From assembly GCA_021850485.1 (NCBI GenBank), contig JAJZLY010000019.1:13545-48612 (forward strand): DNA of 35,068 nt, read 5' to 3'. The notes beneath the pieces were generated by a model that searched no databases, was not told where the DNA came from, and saw only the letters and a program-made list of their open reading frames with translations. The stretch is from Bacillota bacterium (GTDB lineage Bacteria; Bacillota; Sulfobacillia; JAJZYS01; JAJZLH01). Numbering within the stretch: position 1 is the first letter of the stretch; each line of letters begins with the position of its first letter. Positions 19,506 to 34,225 of this stretch are shown here, piece after piece. The position numbers were made by a program, and so were the translations under genes.

Positions 19506-19532
19506 TTGCCACGCCACCTCCGATTTCGGCCG

Positions 19533-19541
19533 ATTGTATCA
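19533..19541 (-). promoter_or_regulatory. Extended -10 promoter of the MFS gene
   Basis: On the minus strand this reads TGATACAAT: a TGn extension plus TACAAT, 5/6 to consensus. It would start transcription near 19526, just before the ribosome binding site at 19521-19516. No -35 was evident. Confidence 0.45.
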
Positions 19542-19626
19542 CCCGGACAGACCCGGCCGACAGTCCTGGCGCTGGCTGGGTACGGCGATCCGTCTCTGGG
19601 CCACTCGCCATCTGTGCTGCAACCCG

Positions 19627-19632
19627 TATAAT
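19627..19632 (+). promoter_or_regulatory. -10 element of moaA
   Basis: A perfect TATAAT (19627-19632), 40 bp before moaA and back to back with the MFS gene promoter. The -35 position at 17 bp (CTCGCC) is poor, so an activator or alternative recognition may be needed. Confidence 0.5.
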
Positions 19633-19665
19633 CACAGGCAGGTTCCGCAAGGTTGCTGAAAGGAT

Positions 19666-20706
19666 GTGCGGCAGTTGGCAGTCGACGAAGCGGGCACCAG
19701 CACCACCGACCTGCTTGGCCGCAGCCTGCGCGACCTGCGGATCTCCGTGACCGACCGTTGCAACTTTCGCTGCCGCTACTGCATGCCCAAAGAGGTGTTC
19801 GGAGCCGCATATCAGTTCTTACCGCGCGCCGAGATCCTCACCTTTGAGGAGATCACCAAGGTGGCCCAGGTGTTCGCTGCCCTCGGCACCCGCAAACTGC
19901 GCCTAACCGGCGGAGAGCCGTTGGTCCGCAGGGACTTGGAACAACTGGTCTCGGCCTTGGCCGCCATCCCCGGCATTGAAGACATCGCCATGACCACCAA
20001 TGGTTCGCTGCTGACTGCCGCCAAGGCCCAGGCCCTGAAGACGGCCGGCTTGGGCCGGGTCACGGTCAGCCTCGACTCTTTGGACGACCAAGTCTTCAAG
20101 TCGATGAATGATGTGGGCTTCCCGGTGGCCCGTGTGTTGGCCGCCATCACCGCCGCCCAACAGACCGGCCTGACGCCGGTCAAGGTGAACATGGTGGTGA
20201 AGCGGGGGATCAACCAAGCCTCCATCGTGCCGATGGCCGCCCACTTCCGGGAGGCCGGCGCCACCTTGCGCTTCATCGAGTACATGGATGTCGGCAACTC
20301 CAACGGCTGGCAGCTGACCGACGTGGTGAGCGCCAAAGAGATCTTGGAGCTGGTCGGTGCTCAGTGGCCTCTGGAGCCAGCCGCCCCCACCCGGCCAGGC
20401 GAGGTCGCCCGCCGCTACCGCTACTTGGACGGCAAGGGCGAGATCGGCATCATCGCGTCGGTCACCCAGCCTTTTTGCGGCGGATGCACCAGAGCTCGCC
20501 TCTCGGCGGAGGGTCGGCTCTACACCTGCCTGTTTGGCCGCCACGGCCACGATCTCAGAAGGGTCCTGCGCGATGGCAGCTCCGACAGCGATCTGGCCGC
20601 CTTCGTGCGCTCCATCTGGGAGCAGCGCTCCGACCGCTATTCGGAGCTGCGCACGGCCCAGACCACAATGTCGCCGAAAGTCGAGATGTCGCACATCGGC
20701 GGCTGA
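19666..20706 (+). CDS. moaA: GTP 3',8-cyclase (molybdenum cofactor biosynthesis)
   Basis: A 346-residue radical-SAM enzyme catalysing the first step from GTP towards cyclic pyranopterin. The N-terminal cluster motif is CNFRCRYC, with the preceding DLRISVTDR signature; LRLTGGEPLVRRDLEQL is the SAM-binding GGEP motif. The C-terminal second cluster is FCGGCTRARLSAEGRLYTCLF, and it ends with a ...HIGG-like tail (MSHIGG), the GG motif of MoaA. GTG 19666 is used here, but AAAGGA (19659-19664) is better spaced for TTG 19675. No other moa genes are nearby. Confidence 0.95.
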   Translation: MRQLAVDEAGTSTTDLLGRSLRDLRISVTDRCNFRCRYCMPKEVFGAAYQFLPRAEILTFEEITKVAQVFAALGTRKLRLTGGEPLVRRDLEQLVSALAAIPGIEDIAMTTNGSLLTAAKAQALKTAGLGRVTVSLDSLDDQVFKSMNDVGFPVARVLAAITAAQQTGLTPVKVNMVVKRGINQASIVPMAAHFREAGATLRFIEYMDVGNSNGWQLTDVVSAKEILELVGAQWPLEPAAPTRPGEVARRYRYLDGKGEIGIIASVTQPFCGGCTRARLSAEGRLYTCLFGRHGHDLRRVLRDGSSDSDLAAFVRSIWEQRSDRYSELRTAQTTMSPKVEMSHIGG

Positions 20707-20736
20707 GCGTTGCGATAGCCTCCAGAGCCGCTTTTT
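20699..20736 (+). terminator. Hairpin with U-run after moaA
   Basis: GCGGCT (20699-20704, overlapping the stop codon) can pair with AGCCGC (20726-20731), followed directly by TTTTT (20732-20736). The loop is long (21 bases) and an inner GGCT/AGCC pair competes. This is the only classical U-tract terminator candidate I found. Confidence 0.4.
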
Positions 20737-20802
20737 AGCTGTGCCGCCATGTTGACTAACCAGACTTAGTCCTTCATTCTTAGACGGAAGGGGCTGATTG
20801 CA

Positions 20803-21039
20803 GTGCCCAAAATGGTCAATGTCCACGAGGCCAAGACGCACCTCTCTCAGTTGCTGGCCGAAGTCGAGCAAGGCGCCGAGATCATCCTGGCCAGGGGCGG
20901 CAAGCCTTGCGCCAAACTGATCGCCTTCGACCCTCGTCAGCCGCGCCCACTCGGCTTTGCCCGCGGCCGCTTCACCGTGCCCGCAGACTTCCTCGCACCA
21001 CTGCCTGAGGCGGAACTGCAGAGCTGGGAGCCGAAGTGA
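20803..21039 (+). CDS. Phd/YefM-family antitoxin (second module)
   Basis: A 78-residue protein: PKMVNVHEAKTHLSQLLAEVEQGAEIILARGGKPCAKLIAF is the full Phd/YefM DNA-binding and dimer region. The C-terminal RGRFTVPADFLAPLPEAEL is the usual toxin-wrapping tail (compare G-x-F-x-V-P-x-D-F). The start GTG 20803 follows GGAAGGGG by 9 bases. The stop overlaps the PIN toxin start by four bases. It belongs to a different Phd subgroup from the module at 1.1 kb, so the two pairs are probably independent acquisitions. Confidence 0.88.
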   Translation: MPKMVNVHEAKTHLSQLLAEVEQGAEIILARGGKPCAKLIAFDPRQPRPLGFARGRFTVPADFLAPLPEAELQSWEPK

Positions 21040-21422
21040 AACTGCTGCTCGATACCCATGTCTTGCTGTGGGCGGTGGTCGAACCGGAGGCACTTTCCGA
21101 GTCTGTGCGCAGCGCCTTGGCGGACCCGGAGAATACTCTGTTGGTCTCATCGGCAACCGCCTGGGAGATTGCCACCAAACACCGCATCGGCCGCCTGCCC
21201 CAGGCGGCCGATTTGATTGCAAATCTGGGCAGCTATGTAGAGGCTCTGGGTGCGGTGGAGCTTCCCATCACGATTCGCCATGCCCAGACCGCCGGGTTAT
21301 TTCGCACTGAACACCGCGATCCGTTTGATCGAATGCTGGCAGCGCAGGCAGTGCTGGAGGGACTGACACTGCTCACAAGCGATCCAGCGTTTTCTGCCTT
21401 CCCTGCCGCTACCATGTGGTGA
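21036..21422 (+). CDS. PIN-domain toxin (VapC-like, second module)
   Basis: A 128-residue PIN RNase of full normal length. LLLDTHVLLWAVVEPEAL carries the first Asp, SSATAWEIATKHRIGRLP the conserved Glu, and HRDPFDRMLAAQAVLEGLTLLTSD the two closing Asp residues. This is the common DTHVLLW group found with Phd-type antitoxins. The start GTG 21036 overlaps the antitoxin stop as GTGA. The gene converges with the acyl-CoA synthetase gene 50 bp away. Unlike the module near position 1000, no frameshift is evident. Confidence 0.9.
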   Translation: MKLLLDTHVLLWAVVEPEALSESVRSALADPENTLLVSSATAWEIATKHRIGRLPQAADLIANLGSYVEALGAVELPITIRHAQTAGLFRTEHRDPFDRMLAAQAVLEGLTLLTSDPAFSAFPAATMW

Positions 21423-21472
21423 CTCTTTGATCCGCTCGACTACCGGCCGATCTGGCCCTGGGGCCCGGAGGG

Positions 21473-22972
21473 TCAGGGCAGGAGCTGGTTCCGAAGCACG
21501 TGCTTTAGCACCTTGCCAGTGGGGTTTCTGGGCAGGGCCGAAACAGCCTCCAGCCGTCTCGGCTGCTTTTGGCTGGCGACGCGGCCCGTCAGAAACGCGC
21601 GCAGTTCCGCCAAGGTGAGCGTGGTGTCAGGCCGCAGCACGATCACCGCCGTGACTGTCTCGCCCCACTCAGGGTGCGGCGTGCCGACCACCGCCACCTC
21701 CGCTACGGCCGGATGGGCCGAAATCGCTTCTTCCACCTCGCCGGGAAAGACATTGTAGCCGCCGGACAAGATCAGGTCCTTCTTGCGGTCGCGCATCCAG
21801 TAGTAGCCTTCCTGGTCGCGCACGGCCATGTCGCCGGTATACACCCAGCCGTCTTTCAGCGTCCGGCTGGTGGCCTCGTCATTCTTCAGATAGCCGGACA
21901 TGGCGCTGGGTGTGCGCATGATGATCTCTCCGGGCTCACCTGGCGGGACGTCTTGGCCGTCTTCGCCGATTAGCCGAATTGCCGTATTCACAGTCGGATG
22001 CCAGCCCAACGAGCCCTCATGGCCGTCATGCTCGCTGGGAGATAGCGCCATGCCGTTTGGCCCGCTCTCGGTCAAGCCATAGACACTCATCCACTCGCCG
22101 CCATACGCCTGGCGCACGGTCCGCACCTGGTCTGGGCTCATCGGTGCGCCACCATAGATCCACCGCTTCATCGAACTCAGGTTGTAGCGGGACAAGTCGG
22201 CCCGCAGTCCGAGCAGGTAGGCGACGGGAGCACAAAACAGGTAGTGCGCGCCTTCCGCCTGCACGACTTCCAACAGCGCCTCCGGCTGACGCGGATTGAA
22301 GCTGGCCAGCACCACCTGGCCGCCGGTGTAGACCGCTCCCAGCAAAAACAAATTGAGCGGTGCGGAGTGGCTGAGCGGCATCAGAATCAGCACCCGCTCC
22401 GTCGCCTGGAAACCGAACTGGTAGGCGGCCATGGCTGCCGTTTCAACGCAGGCCCCGTGGCTCATCACCACACCCTTGGCATCGCCAGTGGTCCCAGAGG
22501 TGTACAAGATCTCGGCGACTTGATCGGCCACCACGGCCGGCGGCCGCCACCCTTCCGTCACCGCCTTGGCTGTGACCAGGTCTGCTGCCGTCAGCACCGT
22601 CACAGGCAGGCCTTGTGCCGCCTCGCTAGCCGCCTCCCGCACCGCTGTTGCCGTCACCACCGCGGCGGCTTCGCTGTGCTGCAAGATGAACCGTATCTCA
22701 GCTGCGCCAAGGCGCACACTGACCGGTACCGCAACCGCACCGGCGATCAACACGGACCAAAAGGCGAGCGGAAATTCGATCTCGTTGCCGATCACAAGCG
22801 CCACCCGGTCTCCAGGTCGGATGCCGGCTGCGGCCAGCCGAAGGGCGCCGGCTTGGCTACGCTCCCACAGCTGGCTGTAGGTCAGGCGAGGTCCGCCGCC
22901 GGCGGCTTGGATCGCCACGCGGTCTGCGAAATTGAGTGCACTGCGTTCCAGTATCTCGACCACGGTCGCCAT
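21473..22972 (-). CDS. Acyl-CoA synthetase (AMP-forming, class I adenylate-forming)
   Basis: A 499-residue enzyme that activates a carboxylic acid through an acyl-AMP to acyl-CoA. Motifs: LYTSGTTGDAKGVVMSH (P-loop A3), VYGLTESGPNG (A5), YTGDMAVRDQEGYYWMRDRKKD (A7-A8), GGYNVFPGEVEEAI, and the C-terminal catalytic lysine in NPTGKVLKHVLR. The start ATG 22972 overlaps the preceding stop by one base; the same frame is open further upstream, but that part is within the dehydrogenase gene. It is the last gene of the merR operon. The context suggests a medium- or branched-chain acyl substrate. Confidence 0.9.
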   Translation of the reverse strand: MATVVEILERSALNFADRVAIQAAGGGPRLTYSQLWERSQAGALRLAAAGIRPGDRVALVIGNEIEFPLAFWSVLIAGAVAVPVSVRLGAAEIRFILQHSEAAAVVTATAVREAASEAAQGLPVTVLTAADLVTAKAVTEGWRPPAVVADQVAEILYTSGTTGDAKGVVMSHGACVETAAMAAYQFGFQATERVLILMPLSHSAPLNLFLLGAVYTGGQVVLASFNPRQPEALLEVVQAEGAHYLFCAPVAYLLGLRADLSRYNLSSMKRWIYGGAPMSPDQVRTVRQAYGGEWMSVYGLTESGPNGMALSPSEHDGHEGSLGWHPTVNTAIRLIGEDGQDVPPGEPGEIIMRTPSAMSGYLKNDEATSRTLKDGWVYTGDMAVRDQEGYYWMRDRKKDLILSGGYNVFPGEVEEAISAHPAVAEVAVVGTPHPEWGETVTAVIVLRPDTTLTLAELRAFLTGRVASQKQPRRLEAVSALPRNPTGKVLKHVLRNQLLP

Positions 22973-24726
22973 CAGACCTGCACCTCCTGAGCGAACTCTG
23001 GAAGCGGGACAGCCGGCACCACAGCACCGTCGATCAGCAGCCGGTAGACGGGTGAGAGCCAGCTTAGATCGGCTCCCACGCCCCGTCTGCTCAATCCGGA
23101 CCCGCCCTTGGCCACTAGCCACCAGGCCAGGACCAGACTGCGGTGATCGCCCTGCCGCAGTTCTCCGGCGGCCCGCTCCAGCAGCAGCCCCACCTCGATC
23201 AGATCCGCCATCCAGTCCATCAGGCGCCGACCGTGACGGAAACCCTGTTCCGGGTTGTGACCAAGCCACTGCAGGGCTCGCTCCAGCGCCACCAACTCTG
23301 CGCCCAGGCGACGGCCCAGATCCCGACTGGATGAATGCGCCTCAGCCACCTCGGCTGCCCGGCGCAGTCGGCTGACTAACACCACATCGGCCTGATGGCG
23401 TCCGCCCACTAGGCGCAACACCTCCAGGGCCTGGATGTTGGCCGGTCCTTCCCACACCGGCAACACCTGTGCCTCCCGGTACAGCCGGGCGGTCACGTAG
23501 TCCTCGACGTAGCCGTTTCCGCCCAAGACCTCAATGGCCCGGCTGGTGTTTCGGACCGCGTCTTCGCCGGTGCGGTACTTGGCCAGAGCGGTGAGCAGGC
23601 GCTGCCAGCCGATTTGCTCAACCTTGCCGTGGCAGGCGACCTGATCCAGTGCCGCCGCCGCCTCGAACGCCAACAGCAACGACGCTTCCAGTTCGGCCAG
23701 CATGCTGAGCAGCGTTTCTTGCATCATCGGGTAGCGGTCCAACGCAGCGCCAAAAGCCGAACGCTGGGCCGCGTAGAGGGACGCCTCCAGAAAGGCCCTG
23801 CGGTGGATGCCGGCCGAGGCCACGGCATTGGCGATGCGTGAGTACTCCAGCGCCTCCAGCATGTGGGCGAAGCCCTCTGGCGGGGCACTCACCTCTTCAG
23901 CTAAGGCGCCGTCCAACTCGATCTCGCCAGTGGCCAGCCCGGTGGTGCCGAGTTTATCCTTCAGCCGCCGGATCCGGTAGCGGTTGAGCTGGCCGTCGGC
24001 CAGCTGGCGCTGAACCAGATACAGGCCCAGACCGCGCGTTCCTGCTACGGCGCCGGTGGGCCGGGCCGTGACCAGCGCGAGGTCGGCGTCAGCGTTGCTG
24101 GCAAACCACTTCTCGCCGCTCAGGCGAAACAGGGTAGGACCTTCTTCCGGCGCCGGCTGTGCCGATGTATCGGCCGCCCCGGCATCGGAGCCGGCGGCCT
24201 TCTCCGTGACCCAGGTGGCCCCATCCAAGAACGTGCCCGGGCTGCGCACAGTCAGGCCGGGCAGATACTTCTCCCTCTGCTGGGCCGACCCGTGGCGGTT
24301 CAAGACGAAGGCGGTGGCGGCGGTCAGGGTGACCGGGCAGGCCAATCCAGGGTCGGCTTGGCTGAGCAGATAGAGCAGTGCAAAGTGCACGCTGTGCGGC
24401 AGGGGGTCTGGTCCGTAGGTGCAGCCGACCGTACCCAAGCCATACACCTGGCGTACTGACTGCTCGTAGAGCGGGTTGTAGGTAACAGCGTTTACCACTT
24501 GACCCTGGCGGTCGTAGGTGGCCAAGGTCGGTCGGCCGTAGCGATCGGTGTACTCGGCCTGGCGGTCGATGTCACCACCGGCCAACTCCCCCATCCGCTC
24601 CAGCAGCACCTGCGCCCGCAGCCACTGCTGCGGCAGGAGCCGACCTACCAGTAGGCGGCGCAAAGAGTCATCAAGCTGGAAAAAGTTCTGACCTCGCCCC
24701 TCCGCCGCTTGATCGTGCACGCTCAT
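22972..24726 (-). CDS. Acyl-CoA dehydrogenase, AidB-like
   Basis: A 584-residue FAD enzyme. It has the long N-terminal extension of the AidB group, then LACPVTLTAATAFVLNRHGS, the flavin-site FLDGATWVTEKAAGSDAG, FRLSGEKWFASNADADLALVTARP, and the C-terminal IEVLGGNGYVEDY and LPVWEGPANIQALEVLR. Escherichia coli AidB is an alkylation-response isovaleryl-CoA dehydrogenase homologue; here the pairing with a synthetase and a LiuR-like regulator favours acyl-CoA oxidation. The insert after TEKAAGSDAG (AADTSAQPAPEEGP) is proline-rich and unusual. The start ATG 24726 overlaps the merR stop as ATGA. Confidence 0.9.
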   Translation of the reverse strand: MSVHDQAAEGRGQNFFQLDDSLRRLLVGRLLPQQWLRAQVLLERMGELAGGDIDRQAEYTDRYGRPTLATYDRQGQVVNAVTYNPLYEQSVRQVYGLGTVGCTYGPDPLPHSVHFALLYLLSQADPGLACPVTLTAATAFVLNRHGSAQQREKYLPGLTVRSPGTFLDGATWVTEKAAGSDAGAADTSAQPAPEEGPTLFRLSGEKWFASNADADLALVTARPTGAVAGTRGLGLYLVQRQLADGQLNRYRIRRLKDKLGTTGLATGEIELDGALAEEVSAPPEGFAHMLEALEYSRIANAVASAGIHRRAFLEASLYAAQRSAFGAALDRYPMMQETLLSMLAELEASLLLAFEAAAALDQVACHGKVEQIGWQRLLTALAKYRTGEDAVRNTSRAIEVLGGNGYVEDYVTARLYREAQVLPVWEGPANIQALEVLRLVGGRHQADVVLVSRLRRAAEVAEAHSSSRDLGRRLGAELVALERALQWLGHNPEQGFRHGRRLMDWMADLIEVGLLLERAAGELRQGDHRSLVLAWWLVAKGGSGLSRRGVGADLSWLSPVYRLLIDGAVVPAVPLPEFAQEVQV

Positions 24727-25145
24727 CTGGAGCTCACCTCCGGCGATGGTTCTTCGCGCCCCACGAGCAGGGCTTGGAGCAGTCCGGACAGGCGTTGTTC
24801 ATAGGCCTTCAGCTCGCCCAGGGTGTCTTCGATCTCTTGCTTTTGGCGTTCCAGAAGGGCGATCTTCTGCCGGCCGTACTGCAAGGTCCGCACCAGCTGT
24901 TCGCGCTGGCTGGGATCTATGTCGTAGAGATCGAGCATCTCCTTGATCGCCGCCAGTCCGAATCCCAGCCGGCGCCCACGCATGATCAGGGCCAGCCGAA
25001 CGCGCTCACGTTCTAGGTAGATGCGGCTCTTGCCAGCCCGTTCAGGTGAGAGCAGGCCACATTGCTCGTAGTAGCGGATGGTCCGGGTGGTGGTTCGAAA
25101 CTCCTGACTCAACTCGCCGATGGTGTAGGTGCGCCGAGTGACCAT
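24723..25145 (-). CDS. MerR-family regulator, LiuR-like
   Basis: A 140-residue regulator. The winged helix starts TYTIGELSQEFRTTTRTIRYYEQCGLLSPER, followed by RERVRLALIMRGRRLGFGLAAIKEMLDLYD and a long coiled coil (about residues 85-125) for dimerisation. It lacks the C-terminal cysteines of metal-sensing MerR proteins, and the FRTTTRTIRYYE helix is typical of the LiuR-like group that controls branched-chain and fatty acid catabolism. It heads an operon with acyl-CoA dehydrogenase and synthetase genes, and a matching palindrome lies 60 bp upstream. The ligand is probably an acyl-CoA, by analogy. Confidence 0.85.
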   Translation of the reverse strand: MVTRRTYTIGELSQEFRTTTRTIRYYEQCGLLSPERAGKSRIYLERERVRLALIMRGRRLGFGLAAIKEMLDLYDIDPSQREQLVRTLQYGRQKIALLERQKQEIEDTLGELKAYEQRLSGLLQALLVGREEPSPEVSSR

Positions 25146-25205
25146 GGACGTGACCGCGCCCCCTCTTGCTACCGGTATGACCGTCGCTCAGATCGTAGGT
25201 CTCAC

Positions 25206-25227
25206 TTGACGTTTACGCAAGCGTCAA
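25206..25227. promoter_or_regulatory. LiuR-like operator palindrome
   Basis: A 22-bp near-perfect palindrome with TTGACG at the left end and CGTCAA at the right end; 9 of 11 base pairs are symmetric. From memory, LiuR-type MerR regulators bind motifs of this kind, built on TTGACG/CGTCAA and an inner TTTACG. It lies between the divergent merR operon and the chrB-like gene, so it could serve both. Confidence 0.65.
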
Positions 25228-25377
25228 TTGGACGCGTCTTGCCGAACGGCTGGCTATGGCTGGTCGTAGCCGACACACAGAGATTCCTCGGCTGCAGCTT
25301 CGCGCCGCGGCAGGGCGGCGCCGCCGGATCTGGAAACGTACCTTTGGACTTAGTAGGACATTGATAGGAGGATCCGC

Positions 25378-25806
25378 ATGCAGTGGGTGACCCGCAAGAA
25401 CGCTAACGTGGACCGCATCGCCTGCCCCTGGCTGATCAAGCGCTTCGTGGACAAGGACGCCACATTTTTGTTCGTGGCGGCGGATGAGGTGGCGGCCGTA
25501 GCAGCCCAAACCGGGGCCATCCCATTCGACGTGAAAGGCGTGGAGCTGGGACACGTCGACGGCCGATGCAGTTTCGAGTCGATCATGCTCAAATACCACC
25601 TGACTGACCCGGCCTTGCTCAGACTGGCCAAGATCGTGCACGGAGCGGATGTGTCGGCGGATATCAACATCGTCCCCGAAGCCGCTGGCCTGGGCGCCGT
25701 CGCCCACGGCTTCGCCCTCGTCCACGGCGAAGACGACCATGCCAAGATCCGCCTGGAGACGCCGGTCTACGATGCCCTCTACGCTTGGTGCGCGGACCAG
25801 TCCTAA
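25378..25806 (+). CDS. ChrB C-terminal-domain protein (chromate resistance type)
   Basis: A 142-residue protein equivalent to the C-terminal domain of ChrB. NVDRIACPWLIKRFVDKDATFLFV, HVDGRCSFESIMLKYHL and DPALLRLAKIVHGADVS are the family's conserved blocks, with Asp, His, Cys and Glu residues that could bind metal. Full-length ChrB is about twice as long and works as a chromate sensor or regulator; the N-terminal half is absent here, so this is the stand-alone form. AGGAGG (25366-25371) precedes ATG 25378 by 6 bases. It is the first gene of a set with a beta-propeller protein and an MFS permease. Actual chromate specificity is not proven. Confidence 0.85.
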   Translation: MQWVTRKNANVDRIACPWLIKRFVDKDATFLFVAADEVAAVAAQTGAIPFDVKGVELGHVDGRCSFESIMLKYHLTDPALLRLAKIVHGADVSADINIVPEAAGLGAVAHGFALVHGEDDHAKIRLETPVYDALYAWCADQS

Positions 25807-25851
25807 CCCCGACAGTGGTTCACTTCGTCTGCCTCAAGGGATGTGAGAGTT

Positions 25852-26763
25852 GTGCCCCTGACGCTGCGTTCGACCATTTTGCTGCCAACCGGTGCCGACT
25901 TTGACCACGCCGACGTCCATCTGCCAAGCGGCCTGCTGGTGATCGCGCACACCGAACCTGGCACAGTTGAGGTGGTGGATACGCTGTCCGGGCACCACCT
26001 GACCACGCTGGCTGGCTGCCCAGACGCCAGCGGTGTGGTGGTGGCTGCGCCAAAAACGTTTGCCTTCGCCGCCGCCCGAGCCAGCGGCGACATCTTGAAG
26101 ATCGACCTCACGGACCGATCCGAGGTCGGCCGTCTGACCGTCGGCGAAGCGCCAAACGGCCTGGCCTACGACAGTTCCCGGGATCAACTGCTGGTGGCCG
26201 ACGTCCGACTCAACACCGCGACCTTGATTGACAGCGCCACCATGACCGCCGTCGCCTCCTGCCTCCTGCCGGGGCGGCCGCGCTGGTGCCTCTACGAAGC
26301 TGGCCGCGACCGCTTTTTGGTGAATGTCCGGGAGCCGGCCCTGATCGCCGTGCTGGCTGCTGGTCCCGACGCCTTCGCGATCAGCTCGCTGTGGCCGGTG
26401 GCAGCAGACGGCCCGCATGGCCTCGCCATCGACCCTGATCAAGACCTCGCCTTTGTTGCCGCCGACGATGGCAACGTGGTCTCGATCTCGCTGGATGGCG
26501 GCCGTGAGCGGGGCCGCTGTCAGATCCCCGGTGCCCCGGACGTGGTGTTCTTCAACCCGCTCTTGTCAGAACTCTACGTGGCGATCGGCGACCCCGGCCT
26601 GCTGGTCACGATCGACACTCAGCAGATGCGGGTGAGCGACACCACGGTCACCGCTTTGGGTGCGCACACCTTCGCCTTCGATCCGGCTCGCCAGTGTCTG
26701 TACAGCCTGTGGCCTGATCTGCACCAGGTGGCGGTCTTTGCCAGCCAAGAGGTGCCTGCTTGA
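25852..26763 (+). CDS. YncE/SMP-30-like beta-propeller protein
   Basis: A protein of about 303 residues built of repeated four-strand blades, each with a pattern like GTVEVVDTLSGHHLTTL, PNGLAYDSSRDQLLVADV, PHGLAIDPDQDLAFVAADDGNVVSISL and AHTFAFDPARQCLYSLW. This matches the YVTN-type beta-propeller (YncE) repeat, usually six or seven blades. No signal peptide is visible, so it seems cytoplasmic, unusual for YncE. I prefer GTG 25852 (AAGGGA 10 bases upstream) over GTG 25843. It lies between the ChrB-domain and MFS genes, and may be a binding or redox-ligand protein for the same substrate. Function unknown. Confidence 0.75.
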   Translation: MPLTLRSTILLPTGADFDHADVHLPSGLLVIAHTEPGTVEVVDTLSGHHLTTLAGCPDASGVVVAAPKTFAFAAARASGDILKIDLTDRSEVGRLTVGEAPNGLAYDSSRDQLLVADVRLNTATLIDSATMTAVASCLLPGRPRWCLYEAGRDRFLVNVREPALIAVLAAGPDAFAISSLWPVAADGPHGLAIDPDQDLAFVAADDGNVVSISLDGGRERGRCQIPGAPDVVFFNPLLSELYVAIGDPGLLVTIDTQQMRVSDTTVTALGAHTFAFDPARQCLYSLWPDLHQVAVFASQEVPA

Positions 26764-26770
26764 ATCGATC

Positions 26771-27997
26771 GTGAAGGATCTGGCGCCTGACGTCTGGCTG
26801 ATCATGACGGCCACTTTCCTGCGCAACTTGGGCTTTGGGTTGATCTCGGTCACGCTGGGACTGACCCTGGTGGCCCGTGGCTTTTCGGCAGCCGCCATCG
26901 GTGGCCTGTTCGCCCTCGCTCTGCTCTCTGGCGGCGCCCAAAGCGCTCTCTTCGGCCTGGGCGCCAACCGCTTCGGTCGCCGGCGGCTGCTGCTGCTTCA
27001 GGCCGTGGCGATCATGGTCGGTGGCGCTCTGCTTGCCTGGTCCCTGTCCCCTTGGGTGATTGGTCTGGCCGCTCTCTTGGCCAGCTTCAGCCCGACCGGT
27101 AAGGACATCGGCGGCATGTTGCCCTTGGAACAGGCGGGACTGGCCCGCGTGGTCCCAGCCGACCGACGGACCTTCATCTATGCCAACTACAACCTGATCG
27201 CCGCCGTCGGCACGGCATTGGGGGCCCTTGCCGCTGGCGTCTTTGCCGGCCACGGTGCGGGCGGGAGCTTCTCACCGTTCGCCTGGAGGTTCGCCCTGAT
27301 CCTTTATGGGCTGCTCGGGCTGGCACTCGCCGTCTTGTACAACCGGCTCACAGCGGCGGTGGAGGGCGGTGGGAAGGCGGCCAAAGCACCGCCGCTAGGC
27401 CCCAGTCGCACCATCGTCACCCGTCTGACCGCGCTCTTCGGTGTCGACGCCTTGGCTGGCGGCTTGGTGGTGCAGGGCATCGTGGTGGTGTTGCTGCATA
27501 ACCGTTTCGGTGTCGGTCTCGGCGTGCTGGGGCCGCTCTTCTTCTTGTCCAACCTGGCGGCGGCCGGCTCCTATTTGGCGGCCGCACCCTTAGCCAAGCG
27601 CTTTGGCCTGTTGCCCACCATGGTGTTTACCCATCTGCCGTCCAACGTGCTGCTGCTACTGGTCGCCTTCGCTCCCACCTTCCCGGTGGCGGCTGCGTTG
27701 TGGGTCGCCCGCAGCCTGCTCTCCCAGTTGGACGTGCCGACCCGCCAAGCCTACACCATGGCCATGGTGCAGCCAGATGAGCAGGCCGCCGCCGCCGGAC
27801 TGACTGCCTCCGTGAGAGGCGTGTCCTCGGCCGTCTCCCCGTCGCTCAGCGGCCTGGCCATGGCCCAAGGCCTGTTCGGTTTACCCTTCATCGCCGCCGG
27901 CACCTTAAAAGCCCTCTACGACCTCGCACTATACGCCATCTTCCGAGGGGTGCCGCTGCCGAGTGAGCGCGCACAAGCGTCAAGCCGGGTCACCTGA
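26771..27997 (+). CDS. MFS transporter, chrB-linked
   Basis: A 408-residue permease with twelve hydrophobic segments. Recognisable parts are the helix 2-3 loop GLGANRFGRRRLLLL (motif A), SFSPTGKDIGGMLPLEQAGLARVV after helix 4, and SQLDVPTRQAYTMAMVQPDEQAAAAG near helix 10. The frame is open from 26660 but that part overlaps the propeller gene; GTG 26771, 8 bp after its stop, is the plausible start. ChrB-like genes are often followed by either chrA or an MFS permease, so this is a candidate oxyanion exporter in place of ChrA. Substrate assignment is inference. It converges with the stress-protein gene. Confidence 0.85.
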   Translation: MKDLAPDVWLIMTATFLRNLGFGLISVTLGLTLVARGFSAAAIGGLFALALLSGGAQSALFGLGANRFGRRRLLLLQAVAIMVGGALLAWSLSPWVIGLAALLASFSPTGKDIGGMLPLEQAGLARVVPADRRTFIYANYNLIAAVGTALGALAAGVFAGHGAGGSFSPFAWRFALILYGLLGLALAVLYNRLTAAVEGGGKAAKAPPLGPSRTIVTRLTALFGVDALAGGLVVQGIVVVLLHNRFGVGLGVLGPLFFLSNLAAAGSYLAAAPLAKRFGLLPTMVFTHLPSNVLLLLVAFAPTFPVAAALWVARSLLSQLDVPTRQAYTMAMVQPDEQAAAAGLTASVRGVSSAVSPSLSGLAMAQGLFGLPFIAAGTLKALYDLALYAIFRGVPLPSERAQASSRVT

Positions 27998-28225
27998 CAC
28001 TCCTTGGTGTGGACGTTTTCTCCTTACGCCATGACGACAGAGCAGGTAAGCGAAGGCTCTTCCTAAGGTGGACCCCAGACGGACCGCAGCACGGGCCGCA
28101 CGGGTGCGCCATGGGCTCGGTCTCATCGGCGCGGCCACAGATCCGCCACCACGGTGCCATACGGCGACAGGGCGCCGCCGCGCTCAGGCCGGTTGGTGCG
28201 CCGCCGGGTATCCGCTCGGGCCGGC

Positions 28226-28705
28226 CTATCCGTCCTGACCATCTTCCGCTGGCATGATCACCAGCGGGCAAGAGGCTCGTTGCATGATGTCATTGAACCG
28301 GCGCCGCTGCAGCAGGGTATCGGCGATATGGGGGTGCGGCGGCCCAAGGACCAGCATCTGGGCTTGACCCGATACCCGCAGCAACACCTCAGTCATGCCG
28401 CCACGGATAGCCGTACACGTCACGGCGCCGACATTCCCAATCGCCTGTGCTACAGCCTGGGCCAAGGCTGCTTCGGTGCGGGCTTGAATCTCGGCTGGCA
28501 GCAGGGGTGGAAACGCCGAGGGCCGAGGGACCGGTCCAGGTGGTGCGATCGGCGGCTGCCAAGCCGTCACCGCCTGCAGCGGAACATGGCGCGCAGTGGC
28601 CTCCCGAAAGGCCCAGCGCAGCGCCGTGGGCGAGCCGCTGGTCAAGCTGACGCCGACCACGATGGCACGTCCGGCGGCCGCGGCCTGTTGGCCAGCGGCG
28701 CTCAC
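28226..28705 (-). CDS. Universal stress protein (UspA) family protein
   Basis: A protein of about 159 residues. AIVVGVSLTSGSPTALRWAFREATARHVPLQAVTAW is the first beta-alpha-beta unit of the Usp fold, and the closing RRRFNDIMQRASCPLVIMPAED is its last. The ATP-binding motif G-2x-G-9x-G(S/T) seems altered: GPPHPHIADTLLQRRR lacks the final G-S, so it may not bind ATP. The frame is open from TTG 28717, but GTG 28705 overlaps the stop of an upstream leader ORF as GTGA and is the likelier start. Function is general stress-related. The MFS gene 28815-30317 lies upstream on the same strand. Confidence 0.8.
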   Translation of the reverse strand: MSAAGQQAAAAGRAIVVGVSLTSGSPTALRWAFREATARHVPLQAVTAWQPPIAPPGPVPRPSAFPPLLPAEIQARTEAALAQAVAQAIGNVGAVTCTAIRGGMTEVLLRVSGQAQMLVLGPPHPHIADTLLQRRRFNDIMQRASCPLVIMPAEDGQDG

Positions 28706-28758
28706 AGCCCGCTCCAATCGGCGCTGTGTCCGCTGGGAGTGGTCATCGCTCTCGCCAT
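28702..28758 (-). CDS. Possible 18-residue leader peptide before the Usp gene
   Basis: A small ORF with ATG 28758 and stop at 28704-28702. A perfect ribosome binding site, AGGAGGAG (28769-28776, minus strand), lies 10 bases before it. Its stop overlaps the GTG start of the Usp gene by four bases. This suggests translational coupling through a leader peptide. Alternatively the leader and Usp were one ORF split by a frameshift. Confidence 0.35.
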   Translation of the reverse strand: MARAMTTPSGHSADWSGL

Positions 28759-28814
28759 CTCTCGCTCACTCCTCCTGCCGGGCTCGGCACAACAGCTAAG
28801 ACATGCTCGCCTGG

Positions 28815-30317
28815 TCATGCGGGTGCCTCGCCCGGACCCGCCTTGGCCGGCTGCTTTTTGGCGACCACTGACAGCGGCTGGGCAATCTCCTCGAGCGATG
28901 TTCGCTCTGCGTTGACAGCGAAAAACCAGGCGATCACCCCGCCCGCCACCATCACGCCAGCACCGACGTAGTAGCCGAGGGTCAAGGGACCGGGGTTCGT
29001 GCCCTTACCCACCAGCGAGGCAAAGAGTAGCGGAGCGCCCACCCCGCCGACCAGTTGGGCGATGGCGAAGAAGAAGGAAATCGCCTGCCCGCGCAACTCC
29101 AGCGGGAAGATCTCGCTGACCGTGAGATAGGCCGAAGATGCCCCGGCCGAGGCGAAGAAGAAGATGACACACCAGAAGATGGTCTGGGTGAGTGCGCTCA
29201 ACATCCCCGCGTCAAAGAGGGCGCCGGAGATGGCCAGCAGGAGGCCCGAGATGCAGTAGGTGAAGGTGATCATCTTGCGCCTGCCGACAGTGTCAAACAG
29301 GCCGCCGAGTAACAGAGGTCCCAGCAGGTTGCCGATCGCGAAAGGGACGAAGAAGTAGCCGATGCGGTCGGACGCGATGTGGTAGAAGTTTGCGAGCACC
29401 AGGGCGTACGAGAAGAAGATAGCGTTATACAAAAACGACTGCGTCACCATCATGGAAAACCCCAGCAGCGACCGTCTGGGGTAGGTTTTGAGCATGGTCA
29501 TCGTGATCTCGTAGTAGGACACAGCGGGCCGGCCGGTCACCTCGATAGCACTGGCGTCGGCAACAGGCGTCAGCTTGCCACCGCCGCGGACCACCTCTTT
29601 TTCAATGCCATCGACGATCTTCTCCGCCTCGGCGTTTTTGCCGTGGACCATCAGCCAACGTGGGCTTTCCGGGATGTAGCGGCGGATGTAGATGATGATC
29701 AGGCCGATCACCGGTCCTAGGAAGAAGCCGATCCGCCAGCCCAGGTCGACCGGCAACAGGTGCGGATTGAGCAGGAACAAGGTGCCGACCGATCCGATCA
29801 GGGCACCGGCCCAATAGGTGCCGTTGACCGCAATATCGACCCGGCCCCGGTAGTAGGAGGGGATCAGCTCGTCGATGGCCGAGTTGATGGCGGTGTATTC
29901 GCCGCCAATGCCCGCCCCTGCGATGAACCGAAAGAGCAGCAAAAACCACAGAGTCGGAGAAAGCCCGGAGATACCGCTTGCCACCAGGTAGATGGCGAGC
30001 GTCCAGATGAATAGCCGCTTGCGGCCCAGATAGTCGGTGAGCCGTCCAAAGCCGAGGGCGCCAACCACCTCGCCGCCCAGGTAGGCCGTGCCGAGCAGCC
30101 CAACCTGGGCGGCTGTCAAACCAAGGGTTGCATGCAACTGCAGGACCGGGCTGACGCTGGAGGCAATCTGGATCTCCAAGCCGTCCAAGATCCACGACAC
30201 ACCCAGCCCGATCACGACCAGCCAGTGGAACCGACTCCACGGTAACCGATCCATCCGGGCAGGGACCAGACTACGCACTGTGCCGGGCGGCGGCTTCTTC
30301 CCTGGCACGGCAACCAC
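28815..30317 (-). CDS. MFS transporter, sugar-porter-like
   Basis: A 500-residue permease. Signatures of the sugar-porter/metabolite-proton-symporter group are visible: GFGRLTDYLGRKRLFIW (motif A, helix 2-3 loop), FRFIAGAGIGGEYTAINSAIDELIP in helix 4 to 5, YIPESPRWLMVHGKNAEAEKIV at the start of the central loop (PESPRWL), and GGLFDTVGRRKMITFTYC in the second half. The substrate is probably a small carboxylate or sugar, but cannot be fixed. The start GTG 30317 lies behind TAAGGCGG; a downstream ATG (30254) is less supported. The final residues are Lys/Pro-rich and cytoplasmic. The Usp gene lies 57 bp past its stop on the same strand (28758). Confidence 0.85.
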   Translation of the reverse strand: MVAVPGKKPPPGTVRSLVPARMDRLPWSRFHWLVVIGLGVSWILDGLEIQIASSVSPVLQLHATLGLTAAQVGLLGTAYLGGEVVGALGFGRLTDYLGRKRLFIWTLAIYLVASGISGLSPTLWFLLLFRFIAGAGIGGEYTAINSAIDELIPSYYRGRVDIAVNGTYWAGALIGSVGTLFLLNPHLLPVDLGWRIGFFLGPVIGLIIIYIRRYIPESPRWLMVHGKNAEAEKIVDGIEKEVVRGGGKLTPVADASAIEVTGRPAVSYYEITMTMLKTYPRRSLLGFSMMVTQSFLYNAIFFSYALVLANFYHIASDRIGYFFVPFAIGNLLGPLLLGGLFDTVGRRKMITFTYCISGLLLAISGALFDAGMLSALTQTIFWCVIFFFASAGASSAYLTVSEIFPLELRGQAISFFFAIAQLVGGVGAPLLFASLVGKGTNPGPLTLGYYVGAGVMVAGGVIAWFFAVNAERTSLEEIAQPLSVVAKKQPAKAGPGEAPA

Positions 30318-30578
30318 CGCCTTATGTGGTAGTCATCGCACGAACTTCCTAAATCCTACCTGTTTGCTGCCCCCAGGGAAAGATGGCCTTCCATCGATGT
30401 CTTTATCCTGTTGCCTGTCAGCAGGGGGCCGGCTCTATCCCCTTCTCCGGGGGAACCACGCCGCGGACGAATGCGTTTTGCGCCGACTTCGACCGCGGCT
30501 TCGGTGCGCGACCGATCGTGCATCACCACCTGCTGCGGGTGACGCTGTTCTCTCCCTTAGGACCCTTATCCTGAGCCC

Positions 30579-31790
30579 TTGCAGGGTGCGACAGTCGGGG
30601 TGTTAAATCGCTCTTCCTGCAGAGGGAGGAGAGAGATCCCACGATGGAAGCTCACAGACGAAGATGCGCAGGCTCTGGTGCTGGCCGGGTTGAAGGGGGA
30701 GCTGTGCCGCCGATACGCGGTCGGCGAGGTGACCTACTACAAGTTGCGCGATCGGTTCATCGCAGCCGGCATGGAAGGGCTGTACAGCAGCGGCCACACC
30801 AAGTACGTGAAGGCGATGGAGGACCGAATCCGGGACCTGGAGAGGGCGCTGGGCCGCAAGTCGCTTGAGGTGGAGTTTATAAAAAACGTCCGAGGTCCTC
30901 AAACGATAGCAGCGGACGAGCTTCGAGAGCTGGTCTCTGGCTTCGCGGCCCAGGGCTTAGCCCGAACCCAGGCGGCGGAACTGCTGGGCATCCCCCGGCA
31001 ACGCCTCTATCCCAGGGATGCTCGTGTGCACGCTCCTCCCCCGGACAGCGGCCGCGATGCCGAGGTGGTGGCCGTCCTGCGGGAACTCTTAGCCGAGGAG
31101 CCCAGACGCCGACACTTCGGATATCGGCGGTGGCAGGCCGTCCTTGGCCGTCGGAAGGGCATCGTGGTCAACCACAAGCGGATGAGACGCCTGCTGCATG
31201 TGCTGGGCTGGACTCAGCAGCGCGTACCTAAGGGGCACCGAGTTGGCGTCGCACGGCCCGGCAATCCCTCCGGCCCCAACCAGGTCTGGCAGATCGACAT
31301 GACCAAGGTCCCGGTCGAAGGCACAGGCTGGCTCCACCACATCGCCGTCGTCGACATGTTCACCCGGGAGGTGGTCGGCCACTTCGAGGGCATGCGGGCG
31401 AGAGCCGTGGAGTGGCGGCAGGCGTTAGACCAAGCGGTGCTGGATCGGTTTCCCGACGGCAGCCGGGGCCAGGGCCTGACCATCCAGGCCGACAACGGCT
31501 GCCATCCAACCGCCAGAGCGTTTCGCAACGCACTGCACACCTTGGGTATCCAGCTTGCCTTCATCGACGTCTGCGAGCCCAAGCAGAATGCCATCGTCGA
31601 GCGCTACTTCCGCACACTGAAGGAAGAGGAGATCTGGCCGACCATCTACGAGACCGTCGGCCAGGCCAGGGACGGCATCGCCGACTTCGTCCGCTTCTAC
31701 AACCAGGTCCGTGAGCACAGCTCTCTGGGCTACATCCCGCCGACCGACTTCTTCACGGCTGCTCGGGCACGAAACCAAGACGCGGCCTGA
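30579..31790 (+). CDS. IS3-family transposase (OrfA and OrfB fused), probably defective at the N-terminus
   Basis: A single frame of up to 403 codons joins the usual OrfA (HTH plus coiled coil EDRIRDLERALGRKSLEVEFIK) and OrfB (rve integrase domain). The DDE residues are in VWQIDMTKV, IQADNGC and NAIVERYFRTLKEEE, with SLGYIPPTDFF at the end. The frame has no good start: TTG 30579 lies in the inverted repeat, and the best ribosome binding site (GGGAGGAGAG, about 30622-30631) leads to ATG 30644, which is out of frame by one base. The helix before LCRRYAV also appears about four residues short compared with related transposases. An A6C run (30881-30887), where IS3 elements shift frame, lies at the fusion point. 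Confidence 0.75.
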   Translation: MQGATVGVLNRSSCRGRREIPRWKLTDEDAQALVLAGLKGELCRRYAVGEVTYYKLRDRFIAAGMEGLYSSGHTKYVKAMEDRIRDLERALGRKSLEVEFIKNVRGPQTIAADELRELVSGFAAQGLARTQAAELLGIPRQRLYPRDARVHAPPPDSGRDAEVVAVLRELLAEEPRRRHFGYRRWQAVLGRRKGIVVNHKRMRRLLHVLGWTQQRVPKGHRVGVARPGNPSGPNQVWQIDMTKVPVEGTGWLHHIAVVDMFTREVVGHFEGMRARAVEWRQALDQAVLDRFPDGSRGQGLTIQADNGCHPTARAFRNALHTLGIQLAFIDVCEPKQNAIVERYFRTLKEEEIWPTIYETVGQARDGIADFVRFYNQVREHSSLGYIPPTDFFTAARARNQDAA

Positions 31791-31812
31791 TCTGTTGACA
31801 ATCGGGGGCTCA
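31789..31812 (+). repeat. IS right-end repeat, copy 1 (24 bp)
   Basis: A 24-bp sequence starting GATCTGTTGACA and ending GGGGGCTCA forms the right end of the IS. An identical copy, in the same orientation, lies at 32611-32634. Confidence 0.85.
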
Positions 31813-31825
31813 TCACAAAGATACT
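31795..31825 (+). promoter_or_regulatory. Outward hybrid promoter at the IS right end
   Basis: A consensus -35 TTGACA (31795-31800) lies inside the IS right end and points outward. Nineteen bases on, outside the element, GATACT (31820-31825) is a 4/6 -10 match. Together they would drive the small gene starting at 31855. Confidence 0.45.
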
Positions 31826-31854
31826 AATGAGCGTGAACTGGAGGCGAGTTCTGA

Positions 31855-32388
31855 ATGCATCAGCTCCAGGGGCGAGGGATTCGGATAGTGTCCGTATGGG
31901 TATTGTCAGCAGCCCTGGCTATCTCCCTTGGCGCGAACCTGGTGCAGGGCACAACTCCGTCGGCCTCGACGGGGAGCCTGAGGGTCATGGAAAGCAGCTA
32001 CCCGGTAATCTGGGGATTCTCCAACATGGCGCGCAGTGCCCTGCGAGGTGCCCCGGTCGGTGTGCCTTCGACCCAGAGTGACTCGGCCGCCGTGGCGTGG
32101 TCACAAGCGACTGGGGCGCTGGAAGCAGCCGCTCCGGCCCTTGCACAGTTAGGGGTCGCAGATGTGGGTGTCGTTGTGCAGGAGTACCAACTCGCCTATG
32201 ACTCCATGCCTACATCGGGAGACCAAGTCCACCAGCAATTGTTCGCGGACGCTCGGCAATTTATCTCACTTGCCGCCAGCATATTGCCTGAACTGAGGAA
32301 CATAGGGGCAGGCCAGAGCGTCCAGACACTGAGCCATGCCTTTCAGACCCTAGCTCGACGAGGCGCCTTCATGTTGCCCAAGCCCTAA
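31855..32388 (+). CDS. Secreted or membrane-anchored protein of unknown function
   Basis: A 177-residue protein with an N-terminal hydrophobic segment (IVSVWVLSAALAISLGANLV, about residues 11-30) behind basic residues, so a signal peptide or membrane anchor. There is no lipobox cysteine. The rest is Ala/Gln/Ser-rich and mostly helical, with no motif I recognise. GGAGGCGAG (31840-31848) precedes ATG 31855. It starts 42 bp after the IS right end and lies between that end and the second copy of the same end, so it may be carried by, or expressed from, the element. Confidence 0.6.
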   Translation: MHQLQGRGIRIVSVWVLSAALAISLGANLVQGTTPSASTGSLRVMESSYPVIWGFSNMARSALRGAPVGVPSTQSDSAAVAWSQATGALEAAAPALAQLGVADVGVVVQEYQLAYDSMPTSGDQVHQQLFADARQFISLAASILPELRNIGAGQSVQTLSHAFQTLARRGAFMLPKP

Positions 32389-32729
32389 CTGGTTTGCGAC
32401 CGCTTGTCGTTTCCGTCATGAACCCTACTGGTGGTGACAGTTCCTTGGTTGCAATCACGGGGCAAAGGGGTCCCTTGGTCGACAATCCCTGCTAGCGTCA
32501 CTATATCGTCCGAGCTTCGCAGCCGCTGGCTGTCCCTCCCCGTCAGTCGGGGTCATCTCCCGTCGGCCGACTTCTTCGCCGCCGCTCAGGGCTAAATCAA
32601 AACGTCGCCAGATCTGTTGACAATCGGGGGCTCAGTACACCTTTCCTGTCTTGTGATTGCTGCTCGATCGGGCGGCCCAGAAGTGGGTCCTAGCCGCGAC
32701 CGGCCAGCCAGAGTGCGCCTTGGCGAATG
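32389..32729. other. Gap with IS relic between two small genes
   Basis: This 341-bp gap carries the IS relic (32551-32634) and no gene that I can support. The part 32389-32550 has no recognised similarity to the IS; it contains a CCCCGTCAGTCGGGG-like dyad near 32538-32552, and nothing else of note. Confidence 0.5.
32551..32634 (+). pseudogene. Relic of a related IS3-family element, 3' end
   Basis: This 84-bp segment matches the last part of the neighbouring IS, with several substitutions and at least two indels. Its coding end reads LPSADFFAAAQG then stop, against IPPTDFFTAARARNQDAA in the intact copy. The last 24 bp (32611-32634) are identical to the IS right end. No 5' part is visible, so only a fragment remains. 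Confidence 0.65.
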
Positions 32730-32924
32730 TTAACGCTTGGGCAGAGCTGGCCGCGGCTGGCGTTGCGCCCGCTCGACAACCTGAGCCAGATGAGCCGCCT
32801 CAATTTGCGCGCTGCGAGCCGCTGCCTTGCGGGCACGGAGCGCCGTTGCCCCCTCCTCGGCTGCCAAGGCCCAGGCAGCCTGCATCTCGGAAAATGTCTC
32901 GTGGTGGTCGCGTTGAGTTGTCAT
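32730..32924 (-). CDS. Small protein of unknown function (64 residues)
   Basis: A short ORF starting at ATG 32924, preceded by the purine-rich GAGGGGGAACGGGA and, further up, a CATAAT -10-like hexamer on the minus strand. The product is highly helical (EMQAAWALAAEEGATALRARKAAARSAQIEAAHLAQ) and basic at its C-terminus. I recognise no family. Alternating Ala, Glu and Arg could reflect GC-rich noise, but the start signals make it more likely real than other short frames here. Confidence 0.4.
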   Translation of the reverse strand: MTTQRDHHETFSEMQAAWALAAEEGATALRARKAAARSAQIEAAHLAQVVERAQRQPRPALPKR

Positions 32925-33041: not shown

Positions 33042-34019
33042 CTACTCGTACTCTTCGCGGCGCAAGATCCCCCGCACCGTCTCCCCGGTGAGGAAACCTC
33101 TGATATTGGCGGCTGCAAGTTCGGTCGCACGACCGATCACACCAGCCACCATCGGCGAGTTATGTGGTGAGCCGAGCAAGTTGGGAAGGGTGGCATAGGG
33201 AAAGTTCATCTGGAAGGCGCCACTTACAAACGGTTCCACCCACCAGGCGTCGATGCCGGCGCTGAAGTGGGGGTGGCTCTTGAGGTGTTCGTAGAAGGCT
33301 CGTTCGTCGATCAGGGCGGCCCGCGCGACATTGATCAAGATTGCATCGTCTTTCATCCAGGCCAACTCACGCTCGCCCAGCAGGCCGCGGGTCACTTTGG
33401 TCAGAGCCAGAGCCAGGACCACGATGTCCGACGCGCTGAGCACGTGTTGCAGTTGATCCAATGTCCCGATGAACTCGATCGCCTGATCGGTCTTGCCGCT
33501 GCGGTTGATCGCCATCACCCGGCCGCCGAGCTGGCGCATCAGGCGGGCCGTGGCCTGGCCGATGCCGCCAAATCCGACGATGCCCACTGTGGCGCCGGCG
33601 ATTGAGCGATTCTGGGCCGCCTGATTGAACTGGCCGTCCATCAGGCGGCGGTGGTTGGGCAACAGATTCTTGCACAGCGCCAGCGTCATCGCCAGGGCAT
33701 GCTCGGCGATGGGCTCGGAATAGGCTCCCACATTGCTCGCCACGGTCACCTTTGGTGCGATCTTGGCGAAGGGCAGGTGGTCGGCACCAGCTGAGATCAG
33801 TTGGATCAGCCGCAAGCGGTCGAGGTGCGCATATTCGACGTCCGAGAGCTCGCGCTCAGGGTTCCAGCTCCACAGGATCTCCGTGTCTGCCAGAGCGCCG
33901 ACTCTTCCCTGTGGCGTCAGCTGCGCCAAGTCGACCACCGTGGCCAGTCCCTCAAAGTAGCGAGTCCAGCGCTCAGTCTGCTCCTTGCCGGCCTGCCAGC
34001 TGATGGCGATGCGTGGCAT
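33042..34019 (-). CDS. D-2-hydroxyacid dehydrogenase family protein
   Basis: A 325-residue NAD(P)-dependent oxidoreductase of the D-isomer-specific family. It has the Rossmann motif ATVGIVGFGGIGQATARLMRQLG, the conserved LINVARAALID with the catalytic Arg, and SPHNSPMVAG with the catalytic His. The N-terminal catalytic-domain signal LIQLISAGADHLPFA and SNVGAYSEPIAEHALAMTLAL are also typical. GGGAGG lies 8 bases before ATG 34019; the same frame is open to 34196 but without a start signal. The substrate could be a phosphoglycerate-like or a small 2-keto acid. Expression is independent of its neighbours. Confidence 0.88.
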   Translation of the reverse strand: MPRIAISWQAGKEQTERWTRYFEGLATVVDLAQLTPQGRVGALADTEILWSWNPERELSDVEYAHLDRLRLIQLISAGADHLPFAKIAPKVTVASNVGAYSEPIAEHALAMTLALCKNLLPNHRRLMDGQFNQAAQNRSIAGATVGIVGFGGIGQATARLMRQLGGRVMAINRSGKTDQAIEFIGTLDQLQHVLSASDIVVLALALTKVTRGLLGERELAWMKDDAILINVARAALIDERAFYEHLKSHPHFSAGIDAWWVEPFVSGAFQMNFPYATLPNLLGSPHNSPMVAGVIGRATELAAANIRGFLTGETVRGILRREEYE

Positions 34020-34176
34020 CTCCAGATCCCTCCCAGTCATGGCGTGATCGCCAGGGGCGGCTCGTCCTTTGATCGTACCGCTGCCAGACGCTTCGGTGCC
34101 ACCACCTGCGCACCTGATCTGGGCCGAGGCCGCCCATCTGGCCACGGCTCGCCCCTTGTGCCAGCGCGAATTGTGC

Positions 34177-34182
34177 GACAAT
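34177..34182 (+). promoter_or_regulatory. Candidate extended -10 before the methyltransferase gene
   Basis: TGC followed by GACAAT (34177-34182) gives an extended -10-like element 43 bp before the start codon at 34226. The -35-like TTGTGC (34156-34161) is only 15 bp away. Moderate support only. Confidence 0.3.
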
Positions 34183-34225
34183 GCCCTGGACACCACCCCA
34201 GACGCCTCGAGGAGACAGGTAGATC

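Follow-up and report, generated by a model that had tools for sequence, protein, structure and literature searches.

Two related IS3-family right ends in direct orientation flank an accessory gene in a genome of the class Sulfobacillia

Insertion sequences (IS) of the IS3 family commonly, though not universally, encode their transposase as orfA and orfB with a programmed frameshift. Circle formation by IS3-family elements is described in PMC9330008 and PMC3299598; the former also describes outward-facing -35 boxes and uses the term transporter IS (tIS) for an IS carrying passenger genes. We analyzed a locus within a 35,068-nucleotide stretch of DNA, hereafter the window, from a Bacillota bacterium of the class Sulfobacillia. 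The locus resembles a composite transposon with directly oriented ISs in that two related IS ends of the same orientation enclose a gene that is not part of an IS. It differs in that the first IS is whole while the second is just a stump of approximately 93 bp from a diverged sibling, and in that it occupies one place in the genome, with its right end found in 0 of the 153 other genomes of the class. The definition of a tIS would fit the stretch from the left end to the second right end (R2) if it had moved as one; the internal right end sets the locus apart from this type, and it is represented by one example only.

The upstream IS carries a transposase gene at 30579–31790 (+ strand), which encodes 403 amino acids. 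The product scores 211.7 bits against the NCBIfam model NF033516 (cut-off 160) and contains the Pfam integrase-core domains rve and rve_3 as well as HTH_21. The motifs QIDMT, ADNG and VERYF are recognizable in the translation, and 35 residues separate the second D from the E, which corresponds to the D-(35)-E catalytic spacing. Judged by its transposase type, its DDE integrase core and its terminal inverted repeats, the element belongs to the IS3 family. In contrast to the orfA/orfB arrangement with its frameshift, the transposase is encoded in one open frame of 403 codons. One of its ends starts with TGTACTG, the sole feature by which the element might be placed in the IS150 group. Both from this group and from the family in general it differs in a left tip that begins with TA, and its closest relative within the class shares just 51% identity over 165 residues.

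This relative is located in genome G024. Matches to the C-terminal part of the transposase at an E-value of 1e-20 or better were obtained in 11 of 154 class genomes, and matches to the whole transposase at 1e-30 or better in 7 of 398 phylum genomes; both counts include the own genome, and in the phylum set the others do not exceed 40% identity. A peptide-pattern search of GTDB contigs recovered four transposase copies with 34–40% identity, all from one Deltaproteobacteria MAG. These copies were considered as a guide to the IS tips and proved of no help, as their ends differ. No occurrence of the transposase in viral contigs was confirmed. The upstream IS is present in a single copy in its genome (1.61 Mb in 33 contigs), and on these comparisons it is a new, diverged member of the IS3 family.

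The 24-bp sequence GATCTGTTGACAATCGGGGGCTCA is identical at 31789–31812 and 32611–32634, on one strand and in direct orientation, as a previous reading of the sequence alone (the sequence-only reading) had stated. It is the sole exact direct repeat of at least 24 bases in the window and hence the longest; in 50 mononucleotide shuffles used as a control, the longest exact direct repeat did not exceed 18 bases (mean 15.1). The repeat is the subterminal portion of an IS3-family right end. The sequence-only reading had equated the end with these 24 bp. The repeat is indeed exact, but the end probably comprises 29 bp, modelled on the two related copies in G024, which share GATCTGGTTGACAAACCGGGGTGCAGTACA and diverge beyond it, with GTACA continuing past the 24 bp. 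Extended by five bases in this way, the right end of the upstream IS (R1, 31789–31817, + strand) reads CTCATCACA, and that of the sibling IS (R2, 32611–32639, + strand) reads CTCAGTACA; the inward tips are TGTGATGAGCCC and TGTACTGAGCCC, respectively. The R2 tip matches the GTACA of both G024 copies, whereas the R1 tip does not and is, by this comparison, degenerate. Allowing up to three mismatches, no right end besides R1 and R2 was found in the 154 class genomes; a right-end-like match at L017:13601 has 6 mismatches in 24 positions (best in shuffled sequence 7–9).

R1 contains TTGACA (31795–31800, + strand), oriented outward to the enclosed gene, as a possible -35 box; a comparable outward -35 is described for IS911 in PMC9330008. 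A promoter scan of 31700–32750 yielded zero sites meeting its criteria. The idea of a hybrid promoter leading from the IS end into the enclosed gene was dropped in view of this empty scan, the TTGACA of R1 being followed 19 bases downstream by just a loose GATACT.

The left end of the upstream IS, TATCCTGAGCCCTTGCAGGGTGCGACAGTCGGGGTG, is located at 30567–30602 (+ strand) and was recognized by an exact copy in the same genome (G000:C25) and a copy with four mismatches in the related genome G001 (G001:C6). The block TATCC, starting at 30567, is the first that all three left ends have in common. Placement of the left tip at this position is uncertain, and the window and G001 also have CCC slightly further out. 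With the tips so placed, the two termini can be aligned without any gap, and the terminal inverted repeat TATCCTGAGCCC is identical to R2 at 10 of 12 positions and to R1 at 9 of 12. The copy in the same genome is a 57-bp left-end relic of the same IS lineage (G000:C25:177993-178049), the one in G001 a shorter relic (G001:C6:32816-32847); neither has a clear right end or a transposase in its vicinity. Weak left-end matches in G064 (E 0.002) and G070 (E 0.004) were treated as chance. The search for the IS elsewhere, with or without the enclosed gene, which the sequence-only reading had proposed, thus returned no second copy and only these left-end relics.

Upstream of R2, an 84-bp degraded 3' end of a related transposase had been described. 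The relatedness is borne out, yet the alignable similarity (31724–31817 versus 32547–32639) gives a stump of approximately 93 bp (32547–32639, + strand) that comprises a transposase tail and the right end. Read in frame, the tail gives ...LPSADFFAAAQG-stop, or in a longer reading SRGHLPSADFFAAAQG-stop, and the stop codon is its own. Comparing the two copies, none of the 24 positions in the tip differs, as opposed to 19 of 65 aligned positions upstream (Fisher p = 0.0013). An unchanged tip next to a diverged upstream part with its own in-frame stop suggests that the stump is left over from a diverged sibling IS using the same recognition site, rather than from random decay of the upstream IS. 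The alignment of both tails over approximately 93 bp in the same order would also be expected if the tail of one IS had been copied around the enclosed gene and had diverged later. We regard such an internal duplication as very improbable, since a sibling IS accounts better both for the confinement of all 19 differences (among 65 positions) to the part outside the tip and for the different in-frame stop.

The gene between the two ends, referred to here as the passenger, was correctly noted before; it spans 177 codons (31855–32388, + strand), encodes an uncharacterised protein, and is preceded by GGAGG (31840–31844, + strand) as its likely ribosome-binding site. The protein has a probable N-terminal membrane segment or signal. 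It matched no NCBIfam family; a Pfam match to CheC is sub-threshold and a PHROGs match is weak (E 0.016). An AlphaFold2 model built from three sequences reached a mean pLDDT of 43.4 and a pTM of 0.35. Homologs are present in 4 of 154 class genomes, namely the own genome, G002 (43%), G010 (42%) and G126 (33%), and in 2 of a spread of 398 phylum genomes, the own and G002. A further match at G000:C2 (E 2e-4, two stops) is weak and was treated as chance. Plasmids gave no match to the passenger, and none was confirmed in viral contigs. Based on this distribution, the passenger is a patchily distributed accessory gene.

The homolog in G010 is located on a 3,585-bp contig (G010:C202, L016) that matches part of G002:C55 (L014:9833-13417) at 99.9% identity, even though G010 belongs to another family. 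The two are probably one sequence binned twice, with one bin contaminated; the G010 homolog was left out as non-independent, which leaves G002 and G126. Such a stray contig shared between relative bins, along with the division of the genome into 33 contigs, might raise the suspicion that the locus itself is an artefact in which a metagenome bin joins two IS-bearing places. This is most improbable, however: a single-copy IS offers no repeat that would force a false join, and the locus lies inside a 48.6-kb contig.

In G002, the passenger homolog is flanked by an aminoglycoside N-acetyltransferase-like gene and an AbiEi/AbiEii pair. In G126, where the contig measures 4.3 kb, its neighbours are a Mutator-type transposase and, on the opposite side, a broken frame (L066:3585-4055, minus strand); this frame appears IS3 OrfA-like by eye, is empty in Pfam, and has as its sole plasmid match a hypothetical protein of Sulfobacillus thermotolerans (30%). 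No ends of the upstream IS above the level of shuffled sequence were detected at the G002 locus or on the G126 contig. That the passenger is never linked to this IS elsewhere, which the sequence-only reading had named as the outcome that would speak against mobilisation, is therefore largely the case, albeit for just two independent homologs.

The sequence directly outside the ends bears on how the locus was formed. CCT adjoins the left end (30564–30566) and also R2 (32640–32642), making these two triplets a candidate target-site duplication of 3 bp only. For the left end and R1, a target-site duplication is absent, as CCT faces AAG after R1. A match of this kind would arise by chance with a probability of about 1/64 for one pair and of about 1/32 over the two right ends tested. 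The CCT was first spotted by eye before the tips had been fixed. Looser choices of the tips gave further matches for R2, namely ACC, a second CCT (with the left tip at 30573) and CCTT, and zero for R1. As such a scan should produce about one 3-bp match by chance for each right end, only the CCT fixed by the alignment was used as evidence, and cautiously. On inspection, joining the flanks in either pairing restored no recognizable interrupted gene.

These observations raise the alternative that the left end and R2 worked together as the ends of a unit of approximately 2.07 kb (30567–32639), enclosing transposase and passenger. Such a unit could be a composite transposon whose second IS shrank later or a passenger-carrying IS, with R1 skipped and its tip mutated. 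In line with this, CCT flanks both outer ends at the tips 30567 and 32639 while AAG follows R1, the R2 tip agrees with the GTACA of the G024 copies where the R1 tip does not, and the passenger is patchy, one of its 4 occurrences in 154 class genomes being owed to the 3,585-bp contig near-identical to part of G002. On the other hand, there is no second copy in the genome, the right end is absent from the other class genomes, and the 3-bp match is weak, given that nearby tips gave several matches for R2 where chance alone predicts about one for each right end. In addition, the left tip starts with TA rather than TG and could lie further out. Taken together, we consider movement as one unit the less likely reading. 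Its specific form, in which R1 was bypassed, R2 took over as the functional right end, and a 2.07-kb circle with the passenger was formed and inserted with duplication of CCT, is more doubtful still. Of the two options offered by the sequence-only reading, mobilisation by circular intermediates thus has the outer CCT and the degenerate R1 tip as its only signs, whereas insertion followed by decay fits best.

In our assessment, the locus probably consists of the remnants of two separate IS3-family insertions, related to each other and equally oriented, around an accessory chromosomal gene. Insertion and decay represent the best fit because the IS is single-copy, the second end derives from a diverged, truncated relative, and the passenger homologs occur without this IS. 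The term "tandem" used previously is not entirely apt, as the ends start 822 bp apart with a non-IS gene between them. According to the favoured explanation, the upstream IS is the one with the complete transposase frame. A downstream sibling IS with the same end sequence would have lost all except its last approximately 93 bp, of which 24 bp would have been kept identical as a transposase recognition site conserved among siblings while the remaining tail diverged. An IS-linked deletion or rearrangement would have taken the remainder of the second IS along with any target duplication at R1. The ends, their divergence, the single copy, the IS-free homologs and the break in synteny described below are direct observations, whereas the order of events and the deletion are inferred. 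According to PMC11708052, which deals with the LTEE, a duplication accompanied each of the 69 IS moves that were unconnected to a large deletion and none of the 14 IS150 moves that were tied to adjacent deletions. A deletion next to the IS would thus be an ordinary reason for the missing target duplication between left end and R1. Two points count against the favoured explanation: independent insertions would not be expected to leave the CCT repeat at the outer ends, and the same orientation of both ISs is expected just half the time.

A comparison of the surroundings was likewise suggested by the sequence-only reading. G001 is collinear with window positions 19111–30404, save for a dehydrogenase block and short gaps, and collinearity stops approximately 160 bp upstream of the IS. 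Beyond the break, G001 has a HEPN-domain gene and an HNH-nuclease gene, and the passenger is absent from this genome. Downstream of the stump, the window contains a 63-codon frame (32736–32924, minus strand) with a sub-threshold HTH_32 match, followed by a 2-hydroxyacid dehydrogenase gene (33042–34196). In G001, this dehydrogenase sits elsewhere on the same contig, between the counterparts of window positions 19111–20704 and 21473–25147; judging from the gene order, the gene has changed place in either G001 or the present genome. The locus is a variable spot, where an IS-linked rearrangement is plausible. An empty site, which would disclose the sequence of events, was found in none of the relatives.

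Overall, our results describe ordinary IS biology: an accessory gene with a diverged IS on one side and a sibling's stump on the other. The passenger may travel with the IS today, although nothing found demonstrates it. The locus provides a record of a diverged IS3 lineage in a group of bacteria that has been sparsely sampled, and of an uncharacterised protein family. Had the outer ends indeed moved as a pair, it would illustrate how a neighbouring gene can become cargo through the remnant of a related IS.
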